From: Bifidobacterium asteroides
Lineage (GTDB): Bacteria > Actinomycetota > Actinomycetes > Actinomycetales > Bifidobacteriaceae
NCBI RefSeq assembly: GCF_003202755.1
Contig: NZ_QGLK01000001.1
Span: 124,001-188,000, forward strand
DNA: 64,000 bases
Direction of reading: 5' to 3'
The notes beneath the pieces were generated by a model. That model was not told where the DNA came from, searched no databases, and saw only the letters and a list, made by a program, of their open reading frames with translations. This document shows, in pieces, positions 37,390-46,210 of this stretch. The position numbers were made by a program, and so were the translations under genes. Numbering within the stretch: position 1 is the stretch's first letter; each line of letters starts with the position of its first letter.

Positions 37390-38655
37390 ATGGATACTTC
37401 AACAATCACCGCCTGTCTTGAGGCTGATCATGCCGCCGACCTGCGCACCGCCGCCCAACGTCTGAAAGGTGTTGCCCGCCATACCCTTATTGAGGAATCC
37501 GATGACCTGGGTGCTCGGATAGGCCATCGCGTTCTGCTCAAGCCGGAGAATCTGCAGCTGACCGGATCCTTCAAGATTCGCGGAGCTTATAACAAGGTGG
37601 CCTCGCTGAATCAGGACGAGCTGGACCGCGGCATCGTCACCGCTTCCGCTGGCAATCATGCCCAGGGGGTGGCTTTTGCCGCACGCAGTCGTGGCGCGAA
37701 GGCCACCATCGTCATGCCCCGAATCACGCCGCCGCTCAAGGTCGATGCCACTCGGGCCTATGGTGCCGAGGTTGTCCTGCAGGGTGAGGTCTTCGATGAA
37801 AGCTCTGATTACGCCCTGGGGTTGGCACGTGATCGCGGCATGACCTTCGTCCCGCCTTTTGACGACTACGAGGTCGTCTGTGGTCAGGGGACCATCGCCA
37901 TGGAAATTCTTCAGGATGTGCCCGATGTCACCGATATCGTGGTTCCCCTGGGTGGGGGCGGGCTGGGCGCCGGCGTGGCGCTCGCCGTAAAGACCTTCAA
38001 GCCTGAGGTCAGAGTCATCGGAGCCACCCCGGTCGGATCTCCGGCCTGGCGTGAATCTCTGACAGCTGGTCATGTGGTCGCAGCAGATCAGATGCGTACG
38101 GCTGCCGAGGGCGTAGCCGTCAGACGTCCCGGCGATCTGAACTATGCTCTGCTCAGCCGCTATATGGATGATCTGGTCCAGGTGACCGAAAGCGATATCT
38201 CCGAAATGATCCTATTCATGCTGGAGAAGCACAAACTGGTGGTCGAGGCGGCTGGCGCCGTCTCCCTGGCAGCACTGGGTCAGTTGGATCTACAATCCGA
38301 TGTCTTCCGATCGGCCCCGGGTCCGCATGTGATCGTCCCCATCATCTCGGGTGGCAATATCGATACGGTCACCATGGGTGCAGTCATCCAGCGGGGGATG
38401 ATCTCCCGCGGGCGCATCATGCAGTTCGGGGTGGAGTTGCCCGATGTCCCCGGCCAGCTGGTCAAGGTGGCCACGGTCCTGGCTGACCTGCGTGCCAATG
38501 TGATCGAGCTCAACCACGACCAGTTCAAATCCTCTGGCCACTATGACAACGGCGTGCTCTTGGAGGTAACTGTGGAGACCAACGGCCCCGATCACATCAC
38601 CCAGATTCTGGACACCTTGCGCAGCCACGGCTTCCAGGTCCATCAGAACTACTGA
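37390..38655 (+). CDS. ilvA: Threonine ammonia-lyase (threonine deaminase) with ACT domain
   Basis: 421-residue PLP enzyme converting threonine to 2-oxobutyrate, the first step of isoleucine synthesis. PLP lysine at residue 62 in GSFKIRGAYNK; SAGNHAQGVAFAA and the phosphate-binding GGGGLGAGVALA follow. The C-terminal ~80 residues (VELPDVPGQLVKVATVLADLRANVIELNHDQ) form a single ACT domain. The single-ACT length fits the shorter actinobacterial type. No Ile-biosynthesis neighbours in view. Confidence 0.94.
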   Translation: MDTSTITACLEADHAADLRTAAQRLKGVARHTLIEESDDLGARIGHRVLLKPENLQLTGSFKIRGAYNKVASLNQDELDRGIVTASAGNHAQGVAFAARSRGAKATIVMPRITPPLKVDATRAYGAEVVLQGEVFDESSDYALGLARDRGMTFVPPFDDYEVVCGQGTIAMEILQDVPDVTDIVVPLGGGGLGAGVALAVKTFKPEVRVIGATPVGSPAWRESLTAGHVVAADQMRTAAEGVAVRRPGDLNYALLSRYMDDLVQVTESDISEMILFMLEKHKLVVEAAGAVSLAALGQLDLQSDVFRSAPGPHVIVPIISGGNIDTVTMGAVIQRGMISRGRIMQFGVELPDVPGQLVKVATVLADLRANVIELNHDQFKSSGHYDNGVLLEVTVETNGPDHITQILDTLRSHGFQVHQNY

Positions 38656-38849
38656 GCACTATGTTCCGATTGGATCCGGTGCCTGTGCCTGGCATCCGAT
38701 GTTCGGGGACAATGATGGACGATGATTATCGCCGGGAGAACAGTCAGAATGGTCGACGCCTTTGCTGGGCTTGGCTGATGGGCCCTGCTGGTTCTTAAAG
38801 GGCCAATCTATGGCGATTCTTGTGCTGCTTTGCGTCTCATCACAGTCGG

Positions 38850-38864
38850 AGTCCCTCTCTTGAT
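38850..38864 (+). repeat. 15-bp direct repeat, left end of plasmid relic
   Basis: AGTCCCTCTCTTGAT, identical to 43115-43129. It lies within the 3' part of the repA remnant. Confidence 0.7.
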
Positions 38865-39186
38865 GCTCTCATGAGGCCTGCCCTCTGCGCCGGCATCGGT
38901 CAGGGCCGCGACCCAGAGAGCGGCCGCATGCTTCAGCGACTGCTTGAATCTGGTGACGAGGTTTCGTGTTTTGGCGTAGTTCGAGCCCATTTGGTTCTGG
39001 AGCGAATTCCGTACCCCGGCCTGTGGAGGGGAGCATGATGACGCGGCTGGTCTTGTGCTTCTTCTGGCGCGCGACTTGGGTGCTAATCCGCACCATGAGC
39101 AGCCTGGCCTTCTTCCCGTACGGCCAGATGTGGGTGGTGCCCTTCCCCGGGGTCGTCACGGTCTGCGGGTGGAGGACGTAGGTATA
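38850..39186 (-). pseudogene. repA plasmid replication initiator remnant, truncated and frameshifted
   Basis: Read on the minus strand from 39186, the frame gives TTPGKGTTHIWPYGKKARLL followed by MVRISTQVARQ, the hallmark of the actinobacterial plasmid RepA C-terminal family (..WPYGKKARLL...STQ..). Near 38990-39010 the frame is lost: coding sense continues one base out of register as QNQMGSNYAKTRNLVTRF and KQSLKHAAALWVAALTD, fitting a single-base indel. The N-terminal portion expected of a full RepA (roughly 80 or more residues) is absent, cut off where the ABC ATPase gene ends. The 3' end runs into the 15-bp repeat. Not functional. Confidence 0.65.
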
Positions 39187-39858
39187 TCAGCCTATCTCGA
39201 TAATCGACGAACAGATTTGCTTTATTTCTTCATTGTGCGTTGAGATGATGACGGCGGCACCTTGTTGGGCAAGTTCGCACAGTATACGTATTACGACGTT
39301 AGCGTTGTCTTGATCCAGCGCAGATGTCGGCTCGTCTGCAAGAATGACACTCGGCTGTTTGAGCAGGAGCCTTGCGAGGGCGATTCTCTGTTGTTCCCCG
39401 CCCGATAGGGTGTAAATCTTTTTCTTCTGTGAGCCATTCATCCCGACGATGTCAAGTACGCTGTCGATTCGTTCGTCCCGTTCCTTGCGATGCTCGCGCT
39501 TCTTCATTTTGAGGGGAATCTGCAGGTTACGCGATACGTTCCACTGTTCGACAAGACCATAGTTCTGGAATAGAAATCCTATGTTTTCGCGAAGACACAC
39601 TCGCTGTCCCTTCCTGCTCTTATGTAAGTAACCGGAACGGAATGTCCCTTCGTTGTAAGTGACCGATCCTTCATCGAAGTCCTCCAACAAGCCGACGCAG
39701 TTGAGCAGGGTCGTCTTGCCTGCACCGGACGGCCCGCTCACTGCGATTATGGAACCAGGTCCAGCGTCGAAGGACAGTCTCGACCATAAGGTGTGTTCTG
39801 CAAATCTCTTGGTAAGTCCTTCGACTTTCAATGTCGGCTGCATGCCTGCGTCTGTCAT
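39187..39858 (-). CDS. Bacteriocin-type ABC transporter ATP-binding protein (lactococcin 972 group)
   Basis: 223 residues: Walker A GPSGAGKTT, Q-loop FLFQNYGLVEQW, signature LSGGEQQRIALARLLL, Walker B VILADEPTSALD and switch His in ISTHNEE. The sequence style (GFLFQNYGLVE, NAN..V..I) matches the ATPases found beside lactococcin-972-like peptide genes. The start at 39858 is chosen because GGAGGGAG lies 6 nt upstream; the frame is open to 39996 without support. It follows the membrane partner by 25 nt. Inference: exports, or protects against, a secreted peptide whose gene is now broken. Confidence 0.85.
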   Translation of the reverse strand: MTDAGMQPTLKVEGLTKRFAEHTLWSRLSFDAGPGSIIAVSGPSGAGKTTLLNCVGLLEDFDEGSVTYNEGTFRSGYLHKSRKGQRVCLRENIGFLFQNYGLVEQWNVSRNLQIPLKMKKREHRKERDERIDSVLDIVGMNGSQKKKIYTLSGGEQQRIALARLLLKQPSVILADEPTSALDQDNANVVIRILCELAQQGAAVIISTHNEEIKQICSSIIEIG

Positions 39859-39883
39859 ATGCATCTCCCTCCGCACCGCGGAT

Positions 39884-41971
39884 TCACGGGCGTTTGATGT
39901 CGTCGGCACGGAACCTTGATTCGTATGCCGATACGGTAATGGCCATGATGAGGCTGGATCCGGCGAAGAGCAATGTTCCAGCCACCAGATCCGCAACCTT
40001 GTTCATCGAGCCGATCATGCCGACTGCCATGAGGGTCAGCAGTACCCCGGTATTCTGCATGATAAGGAAGCCTCCATGTCTTCTGAAAAACCCGTATCCA
40101 TGGATGAATTGGACGAAGGAGAGCCTGCGTCGTCTTGCGCAATACGCGGCCGAGCACACAAGGATGGCCATCATGGCAGCGGCCAGACCGAACGATATGG
40201 CTATAATGTCCCCGCGTTGCTCGTTCCTGGATAATGACAACGTATACGCCACCGAGTCTTTGGCGTTGTCAATACCCTGGAAGTATCCAGAGATTCCATA
40301 ATGGTCCAGCTTGCTTTGCAAGAGTTCCGGATCAGAGAACAATACACTATCGCTTGATGTGTATGACAGGTATACCATGGGGCTGATCAACCCTGACGAT
40401 GGGGATGTGACGGCTACCACTGGATCTTTCAAAGACAGCTTCTGCTGATCTTCCGCAGGCATGAACTGGGTCCCCGAGAAGAGAGATATGTCTTGGCCCG
40501 AACGTGTGCGGACCAGGACGCCGTGAGGGTTGCAGGAATATGGTTTCTGTTTCCGGGTAACACCCAGTTGGCACTGTGTCTTGAAATATTCGGCGTATTT
40601 CTTCAACAAGGCTCCGGGGTCCCCTTTATATGATGAAGGCACCAGGAGTGTGAAAGCCCCGATATCTCTTTCAGACACTCTAACCGGTTTCCCATCAAGT
40701 CCGGCAATGGGTTGTTTGTCAAGATAGTTCGGGCTCACTATCATCGAATCGGATCCGTCCGGTTCGTAAGGATCATTGTTCCCATCAGCGGGACGAACGG
40801 AGTCACCGTTATACCCGACCAACATCGCCTTCCCTCTACTGTCAAGATCCTCGATCACTTTCATCAGGGGAGGCGCTGCCCGGAGCATATCCTCCTGTGT
40901 GATGTTGATTTTGATTGAAAACCTCAGGACATATTGATCCGAGATGCGAGACCACTGTGCCAAGGACCGGCTGGTGCTCTGTACCGCGCTGATTCTATTC
41001 AGAGAACCGCTGATGGTGCCAAAGAGAACAGCCACCACCATGAACTGGGCAAAACCCGCGATGATGCCATCACGGAGTTCGTTACCCTCTCCGTTGAGAA
41101 CGGCGGGTATTCGATCGCGGAATGTACTGGCACCACCTAAAGCCAACGCCAGGAAGACAAGATATGCTGTCAATACAGCCACGGCGATAAACAGCGCTCG
41201 AAGGAGTCGCCAAATCTGGTGGAAGTTATTGATAAACCAGAGGAAAGGTAATCCCACTAAGGTAATTGTCACCAATCCCACGGCGAGTGTGGCGAGCAGT
41301 GACACCAGCTCGCCGACGAGTATCCTTCCGCTGGTATAACCGTGCATCGCCTTGATCGCGTGTATCTTCCTGTTCCTGGACAGGGAATACGCGGTGGAAA
41401 CCACCAATGTGATGGCGATGATAACGACTCCCGCCCAAAGGCCACCCTTCCCTAACGCGTATATCATCGCAGCTATCCAGAAGCCTCGTGACCAGAGGCT
41501 TTGTGATTCGTCAACCACTATCCGGGAACGTGACAAAGCCTTGGCGAGCTGTTCCATATGCGACCTATCCGCATTGGTCGCATAGCTTCCGCGCAAGTCC
41601 TGGGTGGTAATCTCTTCAAAAGAAACTACTTTCGTTGACTGGTCACGCGTTGAAAAGGAAGGATAATCGTACCCTCCATTTCGTTGAAAAGACTTTTGGT
41701 CACCCACAAAGGCCACGAGAACACGAGACTTCATTGAATCACGAAATGAAGGTTGGATTTTGAAGACATTAATCCCTAAATTTCTTGATGCTTGAGCAAT
41801 CGCACGCACAGCATCCGCCTTCGTCGCGGTATCAACCCTCTCGACGGTGAAAGAGGTACCGGTACCAGCTGGAAGCTCCTGGTCGATAGTGATAAGCATC
41901 TCGAATGTCACCACCATGGTGAGAATCAAGGAAGCCCAAATCGTCAACCGTTGAATCCAGTGAATTCGCAA
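39884..41971 (-). CDS. Bacteriocin-associated seven-TM membrane protein (immunity/export type)
   Basis: 695 residues. One N-terminal transmembrane helix is followed by a ~150-residue outside domain, a block of helices (about 165-310), a second ~230-residue outside domain (about 320-550) and three C-terminal helices. This is the layout of the DUF1430 / 'bacteriocin-associated integral membrane protein' family encoded with lactococcin-972-like peptides. The start is a TTG at 41971 preceded by GTGAGGTGA. Codon use is AT-richer than in chromosomal neighbours. Partner of the ATPase at 39187-39858; together they form an FtsX/MacB-like exporter or immunity complex. Confidence 0.82.
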   Translation of the reverse strand: MRIHWIQRLTIWASLILTMVVTFEMLITIDQELPAGTGTSFTVERVDTATKADAVRAIAQASRNLGINVFKIQPSFRDSMKSRVLVAFVGDQKSFQRNGGYDYPSFSTRDQSTKVVSFEEITTQDLRGSYATNADRSHMEQLAKALSRSRIVVDESQSLWSRGFWIAAMIYALGKGGLWAGVVIIAITLVVSTAYSLSRNRKIHAIKAMHGYTSGRILVGELVSLLATLAVGLVTITLVGLPFLWFINNFHQIWRLLRALFIAVAVLTAYLVFLALALGGASTFRDRIPAVLNGEGNELRDGIIAGFAQFMVVAVLFGTISGSLNRISAVQSTSRSLAQWSRISDQYVLRFSIKINITQEDMLRAAPPLMKVIEDLDSRGKAMLVGYNGDSVRPADGNNDPYEPDGSDSMIVSPNYLDKQPIAGLDGKPVRVSERDIGAFTLLVPSSYKGDPGALLKKYAEYFKTQCQLGVTRKQKPYSCNPHGVLVRTRSGQDISLFSGTQFMPAEDQQKLSLKDPVVAVTSPSSGLISPMVYLSYTSSDSVLFSDPELLQSKLDHYGISGYFQGIDNAKDSVAYTLSLSRNEQRGDIIAISFGLAAAMMAILVCSAAYCARRRRLSFVQFIHGYGFFRRHGGFLIMQNTGVLLTLMAVGMIGSMNKVADLVAGTLLFAGSSLIMAITVSAYESRFRADDIKRP

Positions 41972-41977
41972 ATCACC

Positions 41978-42067
41978 TCACCCACTCAAAACAAAGAGCA
42001 GACACATGCCGGCCGACAAGGCAGGAGCTGCCATTCATGAAGCAATAACTTTCCCAAACTTCCTCAT
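41978..42067 (-). pseudogene. Broken secreted-peptide (bacteriocin precursor) gene: signal-peptide stub
   Basis: On the minus strand AAAGGAG lies a few bases before ATG at 42067. The frame reads MRKFGKVIAS, meets TGA (42035-42037), then continues MAAPALSAGMCLLFVLSG to a second TGA at 41978-41980. Read through the first stop, this is a typical signal peptide: basic start, hydrophobic core, small residues. It sits exactly where the lactococcin-972-like precursor should be, immediately upstream of the membrane protein. No mature peptide region follows. Inference: the bacteriocin has been deleted and only its start remains. Confidence 0.5.
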
Positions 42068-42314
42068 AGTCTTCTCCTTTGAAAGCAAATATGAGGCGAA
42101 AACGTTCCACCGCTGACTATTCTACTCCATAAACACAGCTAACTCATTCCGGCCTCTCACACATTGAGACTGCTCTCATGTCACTGACACCGATGTGGAA
42201 ATCCGAACTGGTACGATGACGCCACCACTCCTGGAACAATACCCCTGCCGGAATTCGAACAACACATAAAAGACCAGTTTGCTTGGTTACACTCACACCA
42301 TGAGCATGGGATGT

Positions 42315-42905
42315 TTAGTGGATGCAGTGCGGAATCATGTAGAGGATTCCGCTGGTGATGACACTGGTGGGGATGCCGGCGGTCAGCCATTTGCGGATCT
42401 GATGTCAGTCGAGTCGGATGCTCATTCGTCCGATCTGCTCGCTGGCCTGTCGATTGAGTGAGGCCAGGGCCTCGTCGAGGTGCCGTGGACGTTGTGGGCG
42501 AGCGAGTCGAGCCTGCTTTTCTGCTTGCTCTGCAGGCTTAAGAGCTGCTCGTTCACGTGCCGCTGCTAGTCGTACATTTTCCTGAGCTGTGTTTCGTCCC
42601 TGCTGGCCGTTTGCTCCACGCTCTCCTCGAATGCCTTGTAGCCAGAGAGGATGACCTTCCTTGAGGCTTCGTTCTGCCTGTCGCCTGAGTCCTCTAATCG
42701 CTGCAAGCTGGTCAACAGCATCTGGTTGGCCTGTTCCATCGTGGAGGTTATCGTCTCCAACTACTCCCTGAGGTTCACCTGGCGGCTGGTGACGAGCTGT
42801 ATCTGCGCGCCCTGGTAGTTCCTGAGCTCCTCGAGTACATGCCTCGTCTCGCGCCGTTGCGCGCTCAGGTCCTCCTCGTTGCTCTGGTTTGGGTTCTCGT
42901 CCATG
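42315..42905 (-). pseudogene. Broken plasmid mobilisation-type coiled-coil protein with C-terminal membrane anchor
   Basis: Start ATG at 42905 with GAGGAG upstream. The frame gives MDENPNQSNEEDLSAQRRET and a long charged coiled coil, interrupted by two in-frame TAG codons (42761-42763 and 42566-42568), each explicable as a Gln CAG changed to TAG. A frameshift near 42480 and a TGA at 42405-42407 follow, before a hydrophobic tail IRKWLTAGIPTSVITSGILY ending at 42315. A coiled coil with a C-terminal membrane helix resembles accessory mobilisation proteins of small plasmids. A second overlapping fragment upstream (GIGETPIEKLHEQIKSVAGE) may be the tail of a relaxase-type gene. Family assignment tentative. 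Confidence 0.5.
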
Positions 42906-43114
42906 TCTCCTCGTTTCGTCCGGCAGCGATTGTAGTTCCCCGGCCACGCTCTTAATCTGTTCGTGCAGCTTCTCGATGGGCGTCTCCCCAATGCCCGTGA
43001 GGCGAAGTTATCCACGGTCAAAATCAAAAATTCAAGTTTTCTTGTATAGGTATATAGGGGGACCTCTCGTTAGCCTCACTGCGAGTATGGTTAAGAGGGT
43101 TTTGCTGCATTCAA

Positions 43115-43129
43115 AGTCCCTCTCTTGAT
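43115..43129 (+). repeat. 15-bp direct repeat, right end of plasmid relic
   Basis: AGTCCCTCTCTTGAT, identical to 38850-38864. The bases just inside it encode, on the minus strand, the short tail LNAAKPS and a stop that completes the repA frame when the two copies are joined. Confidence 0.7.
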
Positions 43130-43295
43130 TTGGCCTGATTGTGGCTTGTCTGGGCGTGATTGCTGTCTGCGCTGGTTGATGCACTTGGGGTGTGTTGATG
43201 ATGGCGGTTTCGTGATTGCTGGTGGGTCTGATGCTTGGGTGGTTACGTTTGGTGGGCTGTGATTGCATGGATGTGGTGGGCTGTTTTTGGGTCGT

Positions 43296-43334
43296 TTACG
43301 ATACATAAGAAATAAACTAGGCTACGTATCGTAA
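43296..43334. promoter_or_regulatory. Spaced inverted repeat TTACGATAC / GTATCGTAA
   Basis: Perfect 9-bp arms at 43296-43304 and 43326-43334 with a 21-nt AT-rich spacer, and a third near-copy TTACGACAC at about 43376-43384. It has the look of a TetR-type operator around a promoter, but no regulator or gene start lies next to it; it may be a leftover of a lost gene. Confidence 0.4.
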
Positions 43335-43409
43335 TCAGTGGCGGAACGCCAGAATTAATCCACTATTTTGCTTGTTACGACACATAGCCTGGTTCAGATA
43401 TCCGAAACT

Positions 43410-43781
43410 CTATCCCCGCTTATTATGATTATTGGCAGCACTGTTTGCATAAATTCCAATAACGGCAGTTGCTCCAAGCATTATTACCAGCAACACCCAA
43501 AGTATGACCAAACAAGTGGGATCAAATGCGCTGACACCCTTAGTGAAAATACAACTAAACGCCAAGTCTATCGACATCAATGCCATAATTACGGCTTCCG
43601 ATAGGAACAACCAAGAATACTTGGCGTGAATATACCCCCAGGTTTCATCAGATGACATTATGGCTTTAGTCCTGAATCCGACTTGCCCGTTTCTGCGTAA
43701 ATTACCCAGCTTCGCCTTTCGGTACAGCCACACAAAGTAAATTGCCAAAACCATCATCAATACACAAAGTGCTGCTACCAT
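43410..43781 (-). CDS. SdpI-domain small membrane protein
   Basis: 123 residues, three hydrophobic helices. The segment NGQVGFRTKAIMSSDETWGY followed by a helix matches the C-terminal SdpI domain, known from the Bacillus SdpI immunity protein against the SdpC toxin. Here the domain is a separate protein, encoded 45 nt after the DUF1648 protein, as though an SdpI has been split into its two halves. AT-rich composition. Inference: immunity to a membrane-active peptide or toxin. Confidence 0.75.
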   Translation of the reverse strand: MVAALCVLMMVLAIYFVWLYRKAKLGNLRRNGQVGFRTKAIMSSDETWGYIHAKYSWLFLSEAVIMALMSIDLAFSCIFTKGVSAFDPTCLVILWVLLVIMLGATAVIGIYANSAANNHNKRG

Positions 43782-43826
43782 TGAATTTCGCTTTTTTTTG
43801 AAAACTATTGCTAATGGATCCGATTT

Positions 43827-44480
43827 TTAATTGTTGGATATGACAAACGCTGTTGCAACACCGATAAGTAATAAAAAGATGGCAATCAAGGCAAACATAA
43901 GAGCTATGAAGCCAGTCATCGATATCAGTGCTGCGACAACAAGACCTGCGACTCCAACAAAAAGAAGATCAGAAACCCATATGATTTTTACTGTCCGAAT
44001 CGACAGTTTCATAAGGCAATCTCCATTGCCGGGTTCTTGCAGAAGGGTCCTTTTTGATGGAACTGTTGTGATGGCTGACAGTACAAGAAGCACCGAAAAA
44101 GCAACAATAAATTGATTCACTGGATTTCTAAAAGCTGGTGATTGATGCTCCATTGAACTACTAAGTATCACCATTGCAGCGTACCCTGAAACGGCAGTGG
44201 CCACAGGAAGATAAACATCAATAGAGTCAATTGCTCGTCCAACACTTTGTTTAATCACGAGTACAGATCGAGCAATGAGAACAATGAGCACCACACACAC
44301 AATGACTGCAGGGAAAATCGGAACGGTATATTTTTCCCCCCAAGAATCAGCCTTCCCAAGAGCATTCCAGTGCGTTGGCACTACATCAGGCAGTGCATAA
44401 TAGTTACTACCAAGTACGATAGCCATCACCAAAGCAAGAATGAACGAAAACATTACGGACGGCGACAGCAACTTTTTCAT
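43827..44480 (-). CDS. DUF1648 membrane protein (N-terminal half of SdpI-like proteins)
   Basis: 217 residues with about six hydrophobic segments. After the first helix comes the DUF1648 signature PDVVPTHWNALGKADSWGEK, which in SdpI-type proteins precedes the SdpI domain. The ATG at 44480 nearly overlaps the stop of the tiny ORF upstream (TGATATG), with GGAAG as ribosome binding site, indicating coupled translation. Strongly AT-rich compared with the chromosome. Likely works with the SdpI-domain protein downstream; function inferred from family only. Confidence 0.75.
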   Translation of the reverse strand: MKKLLSPSVMFSFILALVMAIVLGSNYYALPDVVPTHWNALGKADSWGEKYTVPIFPAVIVCVVLIVLIARSVLVIKQSVGRAIDSIDVYLPVATAVSGYAAMVILSSSMEHQSPAFRNPVNQFIVAFSVLLVLSAITTVPSKRTLLQEPGNGDCLMKLSIRTVKIIWVSDLLFVGVAGLVVAALISMTGFIALMFALIAIFLLLIGVATAFVISNN

Positions 44481-44481
44481 A

Positions 44482-44622
44482 TCATAACTTCCACGTTAAT
44501 GACTGGGAATATGGATGTCCATAATTCAACAGCGTTAAACCACCGTCACCCTTTCGGGAACGCAAAATAAAGGTACAGACTCCGTCCACTAACTCTTCGT
44601 TTTCCTTAGTTACAGTACCCAT
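44482..44622 (-). CDS. Small ORF heading the SdpI-like operon
   Basis: 46 codons from ATG at 44622 (AGGGGG about 9 nt upstream); the stop abuts the DUF1648 gene start. The peptide begins acidic (MGTVTKENEELVDG) and ends with an aromatic, Gly/Leu-rich tail (GGLTLLNYGHPYSQSLTWKL). Not recognised. It could be a regulatory peptide, the toxin or antimicrobial counterpart of the immunity-like genes, or a gene fragment; an in-frame ATG at 44688 would lengthen it. Confidence 0.4.
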   Translation of the reverse strand: MGTVTKENEELVDGVCTFILRSRKGDGGLTLLNYGHPYSQSLTWKL

Positions 44623-44681
44623 AATCAACAACCCCCTAGTCGATATACGTTCATCAAATGCAATCGCAAAATGTGATGCGA

Positions 44682-44707
44682 TTGACAAATATTGTAGTAC
44701 TTGTCAA
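44682..44707. promoter_or_regulatory. TTGACAA / TTGTCAA inverted repeat before the SdpI-like operon
   Basis: Perfect 7-bp arms (44682-44688 and 44701-44707) with a 12-nt AT-rich spacer, about 60 nt upstream of the small ORF start. On the minus strand TTGACA can serve as a -35 element, so this is either an operator overlapping the operon promoter or part of it. Confidence 0.45.
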
Positions 44708-45111
44708 GCGATAATCGGTCGTTTTCCGCTGGCGAGAGGCGCCGGTTCTTTCTCCGATGAATTTGGACTCGTGATCATGTCTTTCAAGCGAGTTTGAGCT
44801 CGGCTATTACACGTTTAATCTACTTGGTGACTATCTGAGGGCTAGATTCTATATCGGAAGCGTCGGAGCTCTGTTGGGACAGTGCGCTTCAGGCTTATGG
44901 CTCTACTAAAAGTATGCTATCGGGCATGAAAAGACTCCGATGGGATGTATGGCTGGAAGTCAGCGGAGTGCCCCCTGATCATTATGGCGTGGCTAGGGTG
45001 TTTTGGAGCAAAGAATCGACTCTGTCGGTGCTGCGAATGGGTGGATGGATAGGACGGGGGTGAGTTGGAAGCAGAGGGGCAGGGGAGCACGGTTATTCCT
45101 GTTCGAATTTC

Positions 45112-45460
45112 ATGGGCCCTATCGGTATCTTGTCCCAGTACTCGGCGGTGCTGATAAGGGCATGTCCAGGGCATCTTAGCTTTGCTCGGGCGGGAAGACT
45201 TTGGCTTCCGGAGTCGATTCGCTGTCCTTCTTCTGGGGCAGGGGTTTGCTACCTGATGCAGAGTATCCGCGTGATAGGGGTGCCGGGGTCCCAAAGCGAC
45301 GCTGACAGGGGACCGGTACAGTCGGAGTCTGTCTGTAGTGAGACGGAAGACGGCGCAAGGATTGCAATAGTAGGCCCCGCAGGTTCTTGCAGAGCCCATC
45401 AGAAATCTGCAGATCGCAGATCTGTTCCAGCGATTGCGCGGAGCAGTCAGCGAATCATTC
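45112..45460 (-). pseudogene. Possible decayed coding sequence
   Basis: On the minus strand, coding-like pieces occur in successive frames: PQKKDSESTPEAKVFPPEQS then stop, and after a shift LISTAEYWDKIPIGPMKFEQ plus E and a stop at about 45112. No intact ORF or start. The product is not recognised. The rest of 44708-45111 shows nothing I can support. Confidence 0.25.
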
Positions 45461-46210
45461 CTGTCCGGCAATAGTTTTGTCGACGAGTTTGGGCAACGCT
45501 TCTTCGATAGGTTCATGGATGAGTCGGGTTGCCAGAGAATCATACTGGGTTGAACCCATGTTCATGATGGTGATTGGCACACCTGCTTGGGCTGCCACTG
45601 GCACCAGTGAGGCCGCCGGATACACCTCCAAGGTGGAGCCGATCACCCAGAATTGATCAGCCTGGCTGGCTAGCCTCATGCTCTTTTCCATGGCTCCCTC
45701 GGGCAGGGCCTGACCGAAATAAACCACATCAGTCTTGATGATGCCATTGCAAGGCATGTTGCCTTGGTAGGGCATGTGCTTGTGGCAGTGTGGATCAGGT
45801 TCCTGATCGAGCTTGGCCATGATGTCGGCCGTCCGATATGCCTGACCGCACTTCATGCAATGGGAGCTGCCGATGGTCCCGTGAAGGTTGACGATGACAT
45901 CCTCGGAGTTGCCGGCTTTCTCGTGGAGGGCATCGAAGTTCTGCGTAGCCAGCAGGTTCAGCATGCCTGCCTGCTCCAGCCTGGCCAGTGCCTTGTGCGC
46001 TACTCCGGGCTGGGCCTTCCAGACTGGTGACTCCTTCTGCCACCGCCATGAATACTCCCGCTGCTTCTTGTCGCTCATGAACAGGTCCAGGTCATAAACG
46101 TTCATCTGATCAGGATGCTTGGTCCAAACCCCGTCAGGCCCGCGGAAATCCGGTATGCCGGCGGAAGTCGAGATTCCCGCCCCGGTCAGTACTGCAATTG
46201 TTGTGCTCAT
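45455..46210 (-). CDS. cobB: Sir2-family NAD-dependent protein deacylase
   Basis: 251 residues. NAD-binding GAGISTSAGIPDFRG (residues 10-24), TQNFDALHEKAG, catalytic His 110 in NLHGTIG, zinc cysteines at 118, 121, 142 and 154, and a late GSTLEVYPAASLV block. Length and motifs are those of bacterial class III/II-like sirtuins. Role: removes acyl groups from lysines of metabolic enzymes such as acetyl-CoA synthetase. It stands alone, facing away from the rRNA operon. Confidence 0.93.
   Translation of the reverse strand: MSTTIAVLTGAGISTSAGIPDFRGPDGVWTKHPDQMNVYDLDLFMSDKKQREYSWRWQKESPVWKAQPGVAHKALARLEQAGMLNLLATQNFDALHEKAGNSEDVIVNLHGTIGSSHCMKCGQAYRTADIMAKLDQEPDPHCHKHMPYQGNMPCNGIIKTDVVYFGQALPEGAMEKSMRLASQADQFWVIGSTLEVYPAASLVPVAAQAGVPITIMNMGSTQYDSLATRLIHEPIEEALPKLVDKTIAGQE

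Follow-up and report, generated by a model that had tools for sequence, protein, structure and literature searches.

The report on Bifidobacterium longum 35B (PMC4537262), in its excerpts, describes a putative chromosome-integrated plasmid, a state inferred from a separate contig whose coverage ratio was 1.0. Iteron plasmids with RepA_C-type initiators (PF04796) and lactococcin 972-type operons (PF09683, TIGR01654, TIGR03608), in which the genes for a bacteriocin, a membrane protein and an ATP-binding protein stand together, are the other known systems closest to the locus reported here. This locus lies in a window of 64,000 nucleotides from Bifidobacterium asteroides (assembly GCF_003202755.1, contig NZ_QGLK01000001.1, positions 124,001 to 188,000), the whole stretch of DNA that was analyzed and to which coordinates refer unless another locus is named. 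We propose that positions 38842-45329 hold a decayed RepA/iteron-type plasmid that probably integrated in the chromosome of the B. asteroides group by a crossover within its own repA gene, a reading to which we assign a probability of about 0.88. As far as titles and abstract openings show, none of the papers listed in literature searches deals with the locus.

Parts of one repA gene lie at the two ends of the insert

The insert is placed between the convergent genes ilvA (37390-38655, + strand) and cobB (45455-46210, - strand). It was compared with 27 genomes of the genus and 189 of the family, one genome per species, numbered from G000, the source of the window. A left-junction search of the 27 genus genomes returned related arrangements in several relatives. 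Bifidobacterium asteroides VRA_9sq_n (G009) holds both the integrated fossil and a plasmid-like contig of 12,570 bp (contig 9, NZ_WKKW01000009.1). On this contig, repA is uninterrupted (378 amino acids) and has one copy of a near-identical core, followed by 22-bp iterons. The contig ends in such iterons, which make up a terminal overlap of 44 bp, and its cargo includes a ParA-type ATPase and an AbiEii-type gene; judging from the contig ends, these features are as would be expected of a circular iteron plasmid. In a tblastn search the contig 9 RepA matched 145 plasmid records, with a best E value among the matches listed of 3e-17, and 18 of the 20 listed were annotated RepA at about 22-28% identity.

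Measured against this relative, repA of the window is split and incomplete. Two pieces stand at the left end: positions 39016-39192 correspond to RepA residues 54-112 at 88% amino acid identity, and positions 38835-39008 to residues 248-305 at 72%. About 411 bp of the contig 9 repA are absent between 39010 and 39022, and RepA residues 1-53 and about 113-247 were not found in the window. The tail is 6 kb from these pieces, where positions 45217-45333 correspond to residues 299-337 (54%, E value 2.2e-6); from LRLYRSPVSV onward, the contig 9 tail region corresponds to window positions 44898-45334. Near 44902 a single degenerate iteron, TTTAGTAGAG, stands in place of the array. The window thus has both RepA homology and iteron sequence beside repA, while autonomous replication would not be expected of it because repA is split, deleted and frameshifted. 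Further decay is seen in G003, G009, G010, G011 and G019, where the repA remnant is mostly gone and 38856 is joined to 39140 (39133 in G003).

A 12-bp core sits exactly where the repA homology stops at either end, and for this reason we define the element as 38842-45329. The 12-bp repeat is weak by itself; its weight comes from its position at the breaks of repA homology. Contig 9 has it once, in repA, as ACAAGCGGAGTC (10 of 12 positions identical), so that a direct repeat found at both junctions is single in the plasmid-like relative, as in an integrated plasmid. The core is recognizable at 9 of 10 left ends (it is deleted in G004, Bifidobacterium apousia W8102) and at all 9 right ends aligned, that of G011 lying outside the aligned stretch, and most copies have at least one substitution. 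An attachment site in a tRNA or other RNA gene was also considered and rejected: the only tRNA gene (13889) and the rRNA operon (from 46863 onward) both lie away from the junctions.

Table 1. Features of the insert and its flanks, in window coordinates.
Feature	Position	Strand	Remarks
Left flank: terminator-like hairpin copy (about 38775-38804) and inverted arm (about 38805-38841)	38775-38841	+	3' of ilvA
Left junction core ACAGTCGGAGTC	38842-38853	+	identity between the two junctions spans exactly 12 bp
repA remnant, parts of middle and C-terminal regions	38842-39183	-	frame broken; two pieces matching at the amino acid level
15-bp repeat, left copy	38850-38864	+	within the repA remnant; no boundary
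ABC transporter ATP-binding protein, lactococcin-972 type	39187-39858	-	ABC_tran; TIGR03608 E value 1.6e-67, best hit
Bacteriocin-associated integral membrane protein (permease, 695 amino acids)	39884-41971	-	TIGR01654 E value 1.1e-23, only hit
Lactococcin-972-like bacteriocin gene stub	41975-42067	-	signal-peptide start, then stops; remainder missing
Broken mobilization (MobB-like) coiled-coil gene	42405-43027	-	several frames; 187-amino-acid homologue in G022
Plasmid segment upstream of repA	43114-43297	-	common to contig 9 of G009; contains second 15-bp copy (43115-43129)
SdpI-related membrane protein (SdpI/YfhL)	43410-43781	-	PF13630, 40.1 bits
SdpI-related membrane protein (DUF1648)	43827-44480	-	PF07853, 45.3 bits
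repA C-terminal tail and one degenerate iteron	44898-45329	-	76% DNA identity to contig 9 of G009
Right junction core ACAGTCGGAGTC	45318-45329	+	same 12 bp as left end
Right flank: inverted arm and second terminator-like hairpin copy	45330-45412	+	before cobB

Two further loci concern this replicon family and its plasmid-like member. Bifidobacterium indicum DSM 20214 (G013; locus L120, 9968-11134) has, elsewhere in the chromosome, an intact RepA homologue of 388 amino acids that aligns with the G009 RepA at 60% identity, so that this replicon family is seen in a chromosome a second time. Its neighbor is a 112-amino-acid protein, regulator-like by eye, and a similar RepA is found in G014. The locus was considered as a second integration; no recombinase was evident in its list of open reading frames, to which no profile scan was applied. 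On contig 9 the AbiEii-type nucleotidyltransferase gene adjoins a 341-amino-acid open reading frame (locus L050, 738-2623); only AbiEii has a Pfam match, and the two are perhaps a type IV toxin-antitoxin pair.

The insert occupies one site in ten genomes

Ten of the 27 genus genomes carry the insert (G000, G003, G004, G007, G009, G010, G011, G018, G019 and G022); each has the right arm at one end and ilvA with the left flank at the other. An ilvA match was obtained in 22 genomes; among the 12 non-carriers, nine have cobB right beside ilvA with no insert, and the other three (G005, G006, G016) have no cobB within the stretch examined. In the closest empty relatives, G008, G020 and G025, the ilvA-cobB spacers are about 200-220 bp long. 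The original prediction, made from the sequence alone, had called for an empty site in which a single repeat copy joins the two flanks; three close relatives have empty spacers, but these are without the inverted arms and differ from the two flanks joined at one core.

In a tree built from upstream DNA (up to 17 kb), G025 paired with the carrier G010 (support 100) and G020 grouped with the carriers G018 and G004 (support 96; only 61 for the pairing of G020 with G004). The pattern is most simply explained by a single integration, after which the insert was lost or was replaced by an empty allele. The spacers of G020 and G025 are closely alike by eye though the two are not neighbors on the tree, which would favor replacement by recombination.

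The flanks themselves form an inverted repeat. The left flank, common to the carriers, pairs with right-flank positions 45330-45400; joined at one core, both flanks fold into a hairpin whose arms measure about 70 bp and whose tip is the core, with a minimum free energy of -106 kcal/mol for 204 nucleotides (RNA parameters, without a shuffle control). In a search of the window for close inverted repeats of at least 18 bp, three were listed, with arms of 19-20 nucleotides, and the inferred site would therefore be unusual there. The outer flank hairpin is present once in empty spacers and in two same-orientation copies in carriers, and the inner arms of about 40 bp, which form the inverted repeat, were seen in none of the three empty spacers (G008, G020, G025). 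Across the 189 family genomes the right arm was found at full length in 10, each time at the ilvA-cobB locus. Other matches were to the left arm of G004 itself (E value 0.0011) and to 42 bp in G036 (79%, E value 0.0018), together with numerous weaker ones reaching E value 1, taken as chance. The right arm had no match in 72,556 plasmid records, contig 9 has the core and no significant match to the flank arms, and one strict pattern found nothing in viral contigs.

The cargo of the ilvA-cobB insertion site varies between genomes. The G007 copy (locus L014, 7505-14125) has additional genes for a Mutator-family transposase, an ABC exporter and a serine resolvase, and the G010 copy (locus L020) encodes Amidase_6 and DUF4062 proteins. 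By inspection of ilvA-cobB spacers (loci L068, L062 and L067), the G008 hairpin resembles a mix of the left and right hairpin copies of carriers; such a mixed hairpin could be the trace of excision through recombination between hairpin copies.

The bacteriocin-type transporter is under purifying selection

Comparison with contig 9 places a bacteriocin-type operon where the first 53 codons of repA would be, beside the repA upstream region; G004 and contig 9 are without it. The open reading frame of its ATP-binding protein, as listed, reaches 39996, and the start used here is tentative. At the other end of the operon, 31 residues of the bacteriocin gene stub match a 97-amino-acid precursor of G010 (52%, E value 4e-5), which itself matches Pfam Lactococcin_972 (PF09683) with 42.7 bits at a cut-off of 22. 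The bacteriocin gene is intact in two of the nine operon carriers (G010 and G011); only a stub of it is left in G000, G007 and G018, stops interrupt it in G003 and G009, and it is unrecognizable in G019 and G022.

The genes for the ATP-binding protein and the permease are open in all nine genomes, with no stops and no frame-breaking gaps. Over 36 pairs from these genomes, the median ratio of nonsynonymous to synonymous divergence (dN/dS) was 0.10 for the ATP-binding protein, 0.27 for the permease and 0.04 for ilvA, a pattern by which the transporter genes are judged to be under purifying selection. Synonymous divergence (dS) was below that of ilvA in 34 of 36 pairs for the ATP-binding protein and in 36 of 36 for the permease, and for cobB in only 7 of 28. 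By its open frames, low dN/dS and dS below that of ilvA, the transporter has been kept and was probably exchanged between species after the flanking genes had diverged. Its present role is most likely protection against, or export of, lactococcin-972-like peptides from neighboring strains, a protective role being suggested by family membership.

Other genes of the insert

The mobilization-like gene named in the original prediction is present, in pieces, and encodes a coiled coil. Its 187-amino-acid homologue in G022 matched 104 plasmid records (E value up to 0.01), of which 93 were typed mobilizable and none covered 80%; among the matches listed, the best E value was 3e-6 and identities were 31-34%. 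The gene had no Pfam match above cut-off, and in Pfam and NCBIfam nothing rose above cut-off for the open reading frames of the repA remnant and the Mob-like gene. Coiled coils can match by composition, and the MobB label is therefore fair, not firm. The segment 43298-44712 has a G+C content of 41.8% and was matched in two of the 27 genus genomes (its own, and G017 over 168 bp at 67%), with no match in the other carriers. It includes the SdpI-related pair (43410-44480), which may have an immunity function against an SdpC-type toxin.

The 15-bp repeat within the insert is coincidental

The original prediction had bracketed the plasmid by two copies of a 15-bp repeat, AGTCCCTCTCTTGAT, at 38850-38864 and 43115-43129. 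Both copies are present, the minus-strand RepA remnant just within the left one is confirmed by its match to residues of the relative's RepA, and the block is indeed richer in AT (its G+C content is 53.0%, that outside the element 59.5%; of 299 windows of the same size, 24 are equally low or lower). Recombination near the 3' end of repA also stands; the 15-bp boundaries do not, since the core is a different 12-bp sequence and the true right end is 45329 in place of 43129. Nor is the frame said to be restored on joining the copies (HESIKRGT-LNAAKPS) that of the intact homologue, which reads LRLYRSPVSV after SIEKGG; that tail is at 45217-45333.

Exact direct repeats of at least 15 bp number 12 in the window, five of them at the spacing of this pair or closer. 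Sixty first-order Markov sequences of the same length had on average 3.1 such repeats, 0.32 of them that close, and 30% had at least one that close. The expectation of 0.10 for AGTCCCTCTCTTGAT (up to 2 mismatches) applies to a word picked after the fact. At the left position, G007 and G018 read CCCTTTCTTGAT, G022 and contig 9 of G009 read CCGCCTTTCTC(G/A)AT, and G004, matching over part of the stretch, reads CTTTCTTGAT. At the right position, G004, G011 and contig 9 read AGTCCATCTCTTGAATTTGG, G018 and G022 GGTCCATCTCTTGAATTTGG, and G010 AGTCCATCTCTTGGATTTGG; the G019 alignment has AGTCCC in common and then ends, and no match was obtained in G003, G007 or G009. As no compared relative has the 15-bp word, the identity most likely arose in the source genome after integration.

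Discussion

We read the insert as an integrated plasmid in decay; its replicon type is known, and relatives document it well. At the sequence level integration is shown by the split gene, the common core, the uninterrupted relative, the single site in 10 genomes and the empty spacers in relatives.

Several points weigh against this reading. The contig 9 core and the window core differ at 2 of 12 positions, and the free state of contig 9 rests on contig ends, not reads. A profile search, the check proposed with the original prediction, was answered in part: the uninterrupted RepA scored 25.7 bits against Pfam RepA_C (PF04796), just under the curated cut-off of 26, and the window fragments gave no Pfam match. 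Those fragments also had no match in the plasmid records when searched directly (blastn, tblastn), the plasmid matches having come only via the uninterrupted relative. In the repA remnant dN/dS exceeds 1 in three of three comparisons, based on 138 bp only. The transporter proteins fall below their NCBIfam cut-offs (TIGR03608, 227 bits against 254.85; TIGR01654, 83.6 against 189.35), and their low dS may partly reflect base composition. On the tree G008 is unsupported (37), so that loss and an original empty site are both possible there. Finally, the empty spacers, with a single short hairpin and without the arms of about 40 bp beside the core, are unequal to rejoined flanks, and at least one further step is therefore needed.

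We suggest the following course of events. A RepA/iteron plasmid integrated between ilvA and cobB in an ancestor of the B. asteroides group, most simply once, by a crossover in the 12-bp stretch of the 3' part of repA. The crossover split repA, leaving its body at the left end and its C-terminal tail at the right, and the split gene would no longer drive replication from the chromosome. Decay of repA, the mobilization gene and the iterons followed through the deletions and frameshifts visible in the sequence; the bacteriocin gene was lost in seven of nine genomes, and the ATP-binding protein and permease stayed open under purifying selection. Later, homologous recombination in the flanks probably carried the locus between species, as suggested by the low synonymous divergence and the nested empty alleles. 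Scanned against Pfam, the nine open reading frames of the window and the five of contig 9 included no recombinase, so that a rare recombination at short homology, or an enzyme encoded elsewhere, probably brought about the integration. The inverted arms may have preceded the plasmid, may have arrived with it or may have been lost upon excision.

The alternative that survives best, though we consider it unlikely, is site-specific integration, in which a recombinase joins the repA core with a dyad-symmetric chromosomal site, CGTCTCAYYACAG-n11-CTGTAGTGAGACG. The enzyme would be XerC/D-like and host-encoded, or would come from a lost module or a co-resident element, and integration would switch replication off and excision switch it on. 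The core does lie in the spacer of the inverted repeat made by both flanks, the site is the same in 10 genomes and the G007 insert has a serine resolvase gene. However, the scans just described returned no recombinase, and the chromosomal dyad (up to 3 mismatches, 27 genus genomes) had 12 matches in nine genomes, all at the ends of this insert and none at an empty site. Moreover, the family genomes hold no other full-length right arm, and a single event accounts for all copies. It is a long shot that the repA core really serves as an attachment site, paired with the tip of a long hairpin in the chromosome, into which a borrowed recombinase integrates the plasmid. If true, this would be a lysogeny-like switch in a plasmid without its own integrase, where integration stops replication and excision restores an intact initiator; excision would also bring back a palindrome of about 150 bp, whose instability could be the reason that the short hairpin alone is found in empty spacers. 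Such a switch without a resident integrase is possible, with little positive evidence.

A transposon-like unit, with the 40-bp arms as terminal inverted repeats, a duplicated hairpin of about 25 bp and no Campbell-type crossover at the core, would account for empty spacers with one hairpin and no arms and for carriers with two direct hairpins and inverted arms inside them. We find this distinctly unlikely, as no transposase is among the nine window open reading frames scanned, the full-length right arm occurs nowhere else in the family genomes or the plasmid records, and the plasmid relative has the core without a significant arm match. An integrative mobilizable or conjugative element in place of a plasmid would fit the chromosomal position, the short direct repeats at the ends and the MobB-like relic, but is very improbable, given that no integrase was found among the same window and contig 9 open reading frames and that the ends are the halves of a replication gene with an iteron relic at the right. 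That the plasmid is 38850-43129, integrated at the exact 15-bp repeat whose left copy lies inside repA and ending repA in LNAAKPS, is almost certainly wrong: the repeat is one among the 12 in the window, relatives read otherwise at both positions, the repA tail and core lie beyond that block at 45.2-45.33 kb, the second copy is in DNA upstream of repA in contig 9, and the uninterrupted RepA was judged to refute this version already.

Read as a decayed integrated plasmid, the locus offers, with several decay stages in different genomes and an uninterrupted relative, a record of the passage from plasmid to chromosomal island. Along this route a crossover in the initiator gene disables replication, backbone genes decay and a bacteriocin-type transporter is retained, apparently swapped among species of bee-gut symbionts.

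Among known systems, the locus shares with lactococcin 972-type operons the association of its three genes, the peptide being intact in G010 and G011; in contrast to those operons, the peptide gene of the window is a stub with no PF09683 precursor, the transporter proteins score below the curated cut-offs and the operon lies in an integrated plasmid. Of the RepA_C-type iteron plasmids, contig 9 of VRA_9sq_n is closest, with a homologous RepA and the same order of upstream region, repA and iterons, whereas the copy in the window lies in the chromosome, is split at the core, has internal deletions and shows one degenerate iteron instead of an array. As in the excerpts of the report on B. longum 35B (PMC4537262), plasmid DNA is present at single copy with the chromosome; unlike the case in those excerpts, both junctions, the split gene and the empty spacers are seen here, in a comparison that extends to 10 genomes with the insert.

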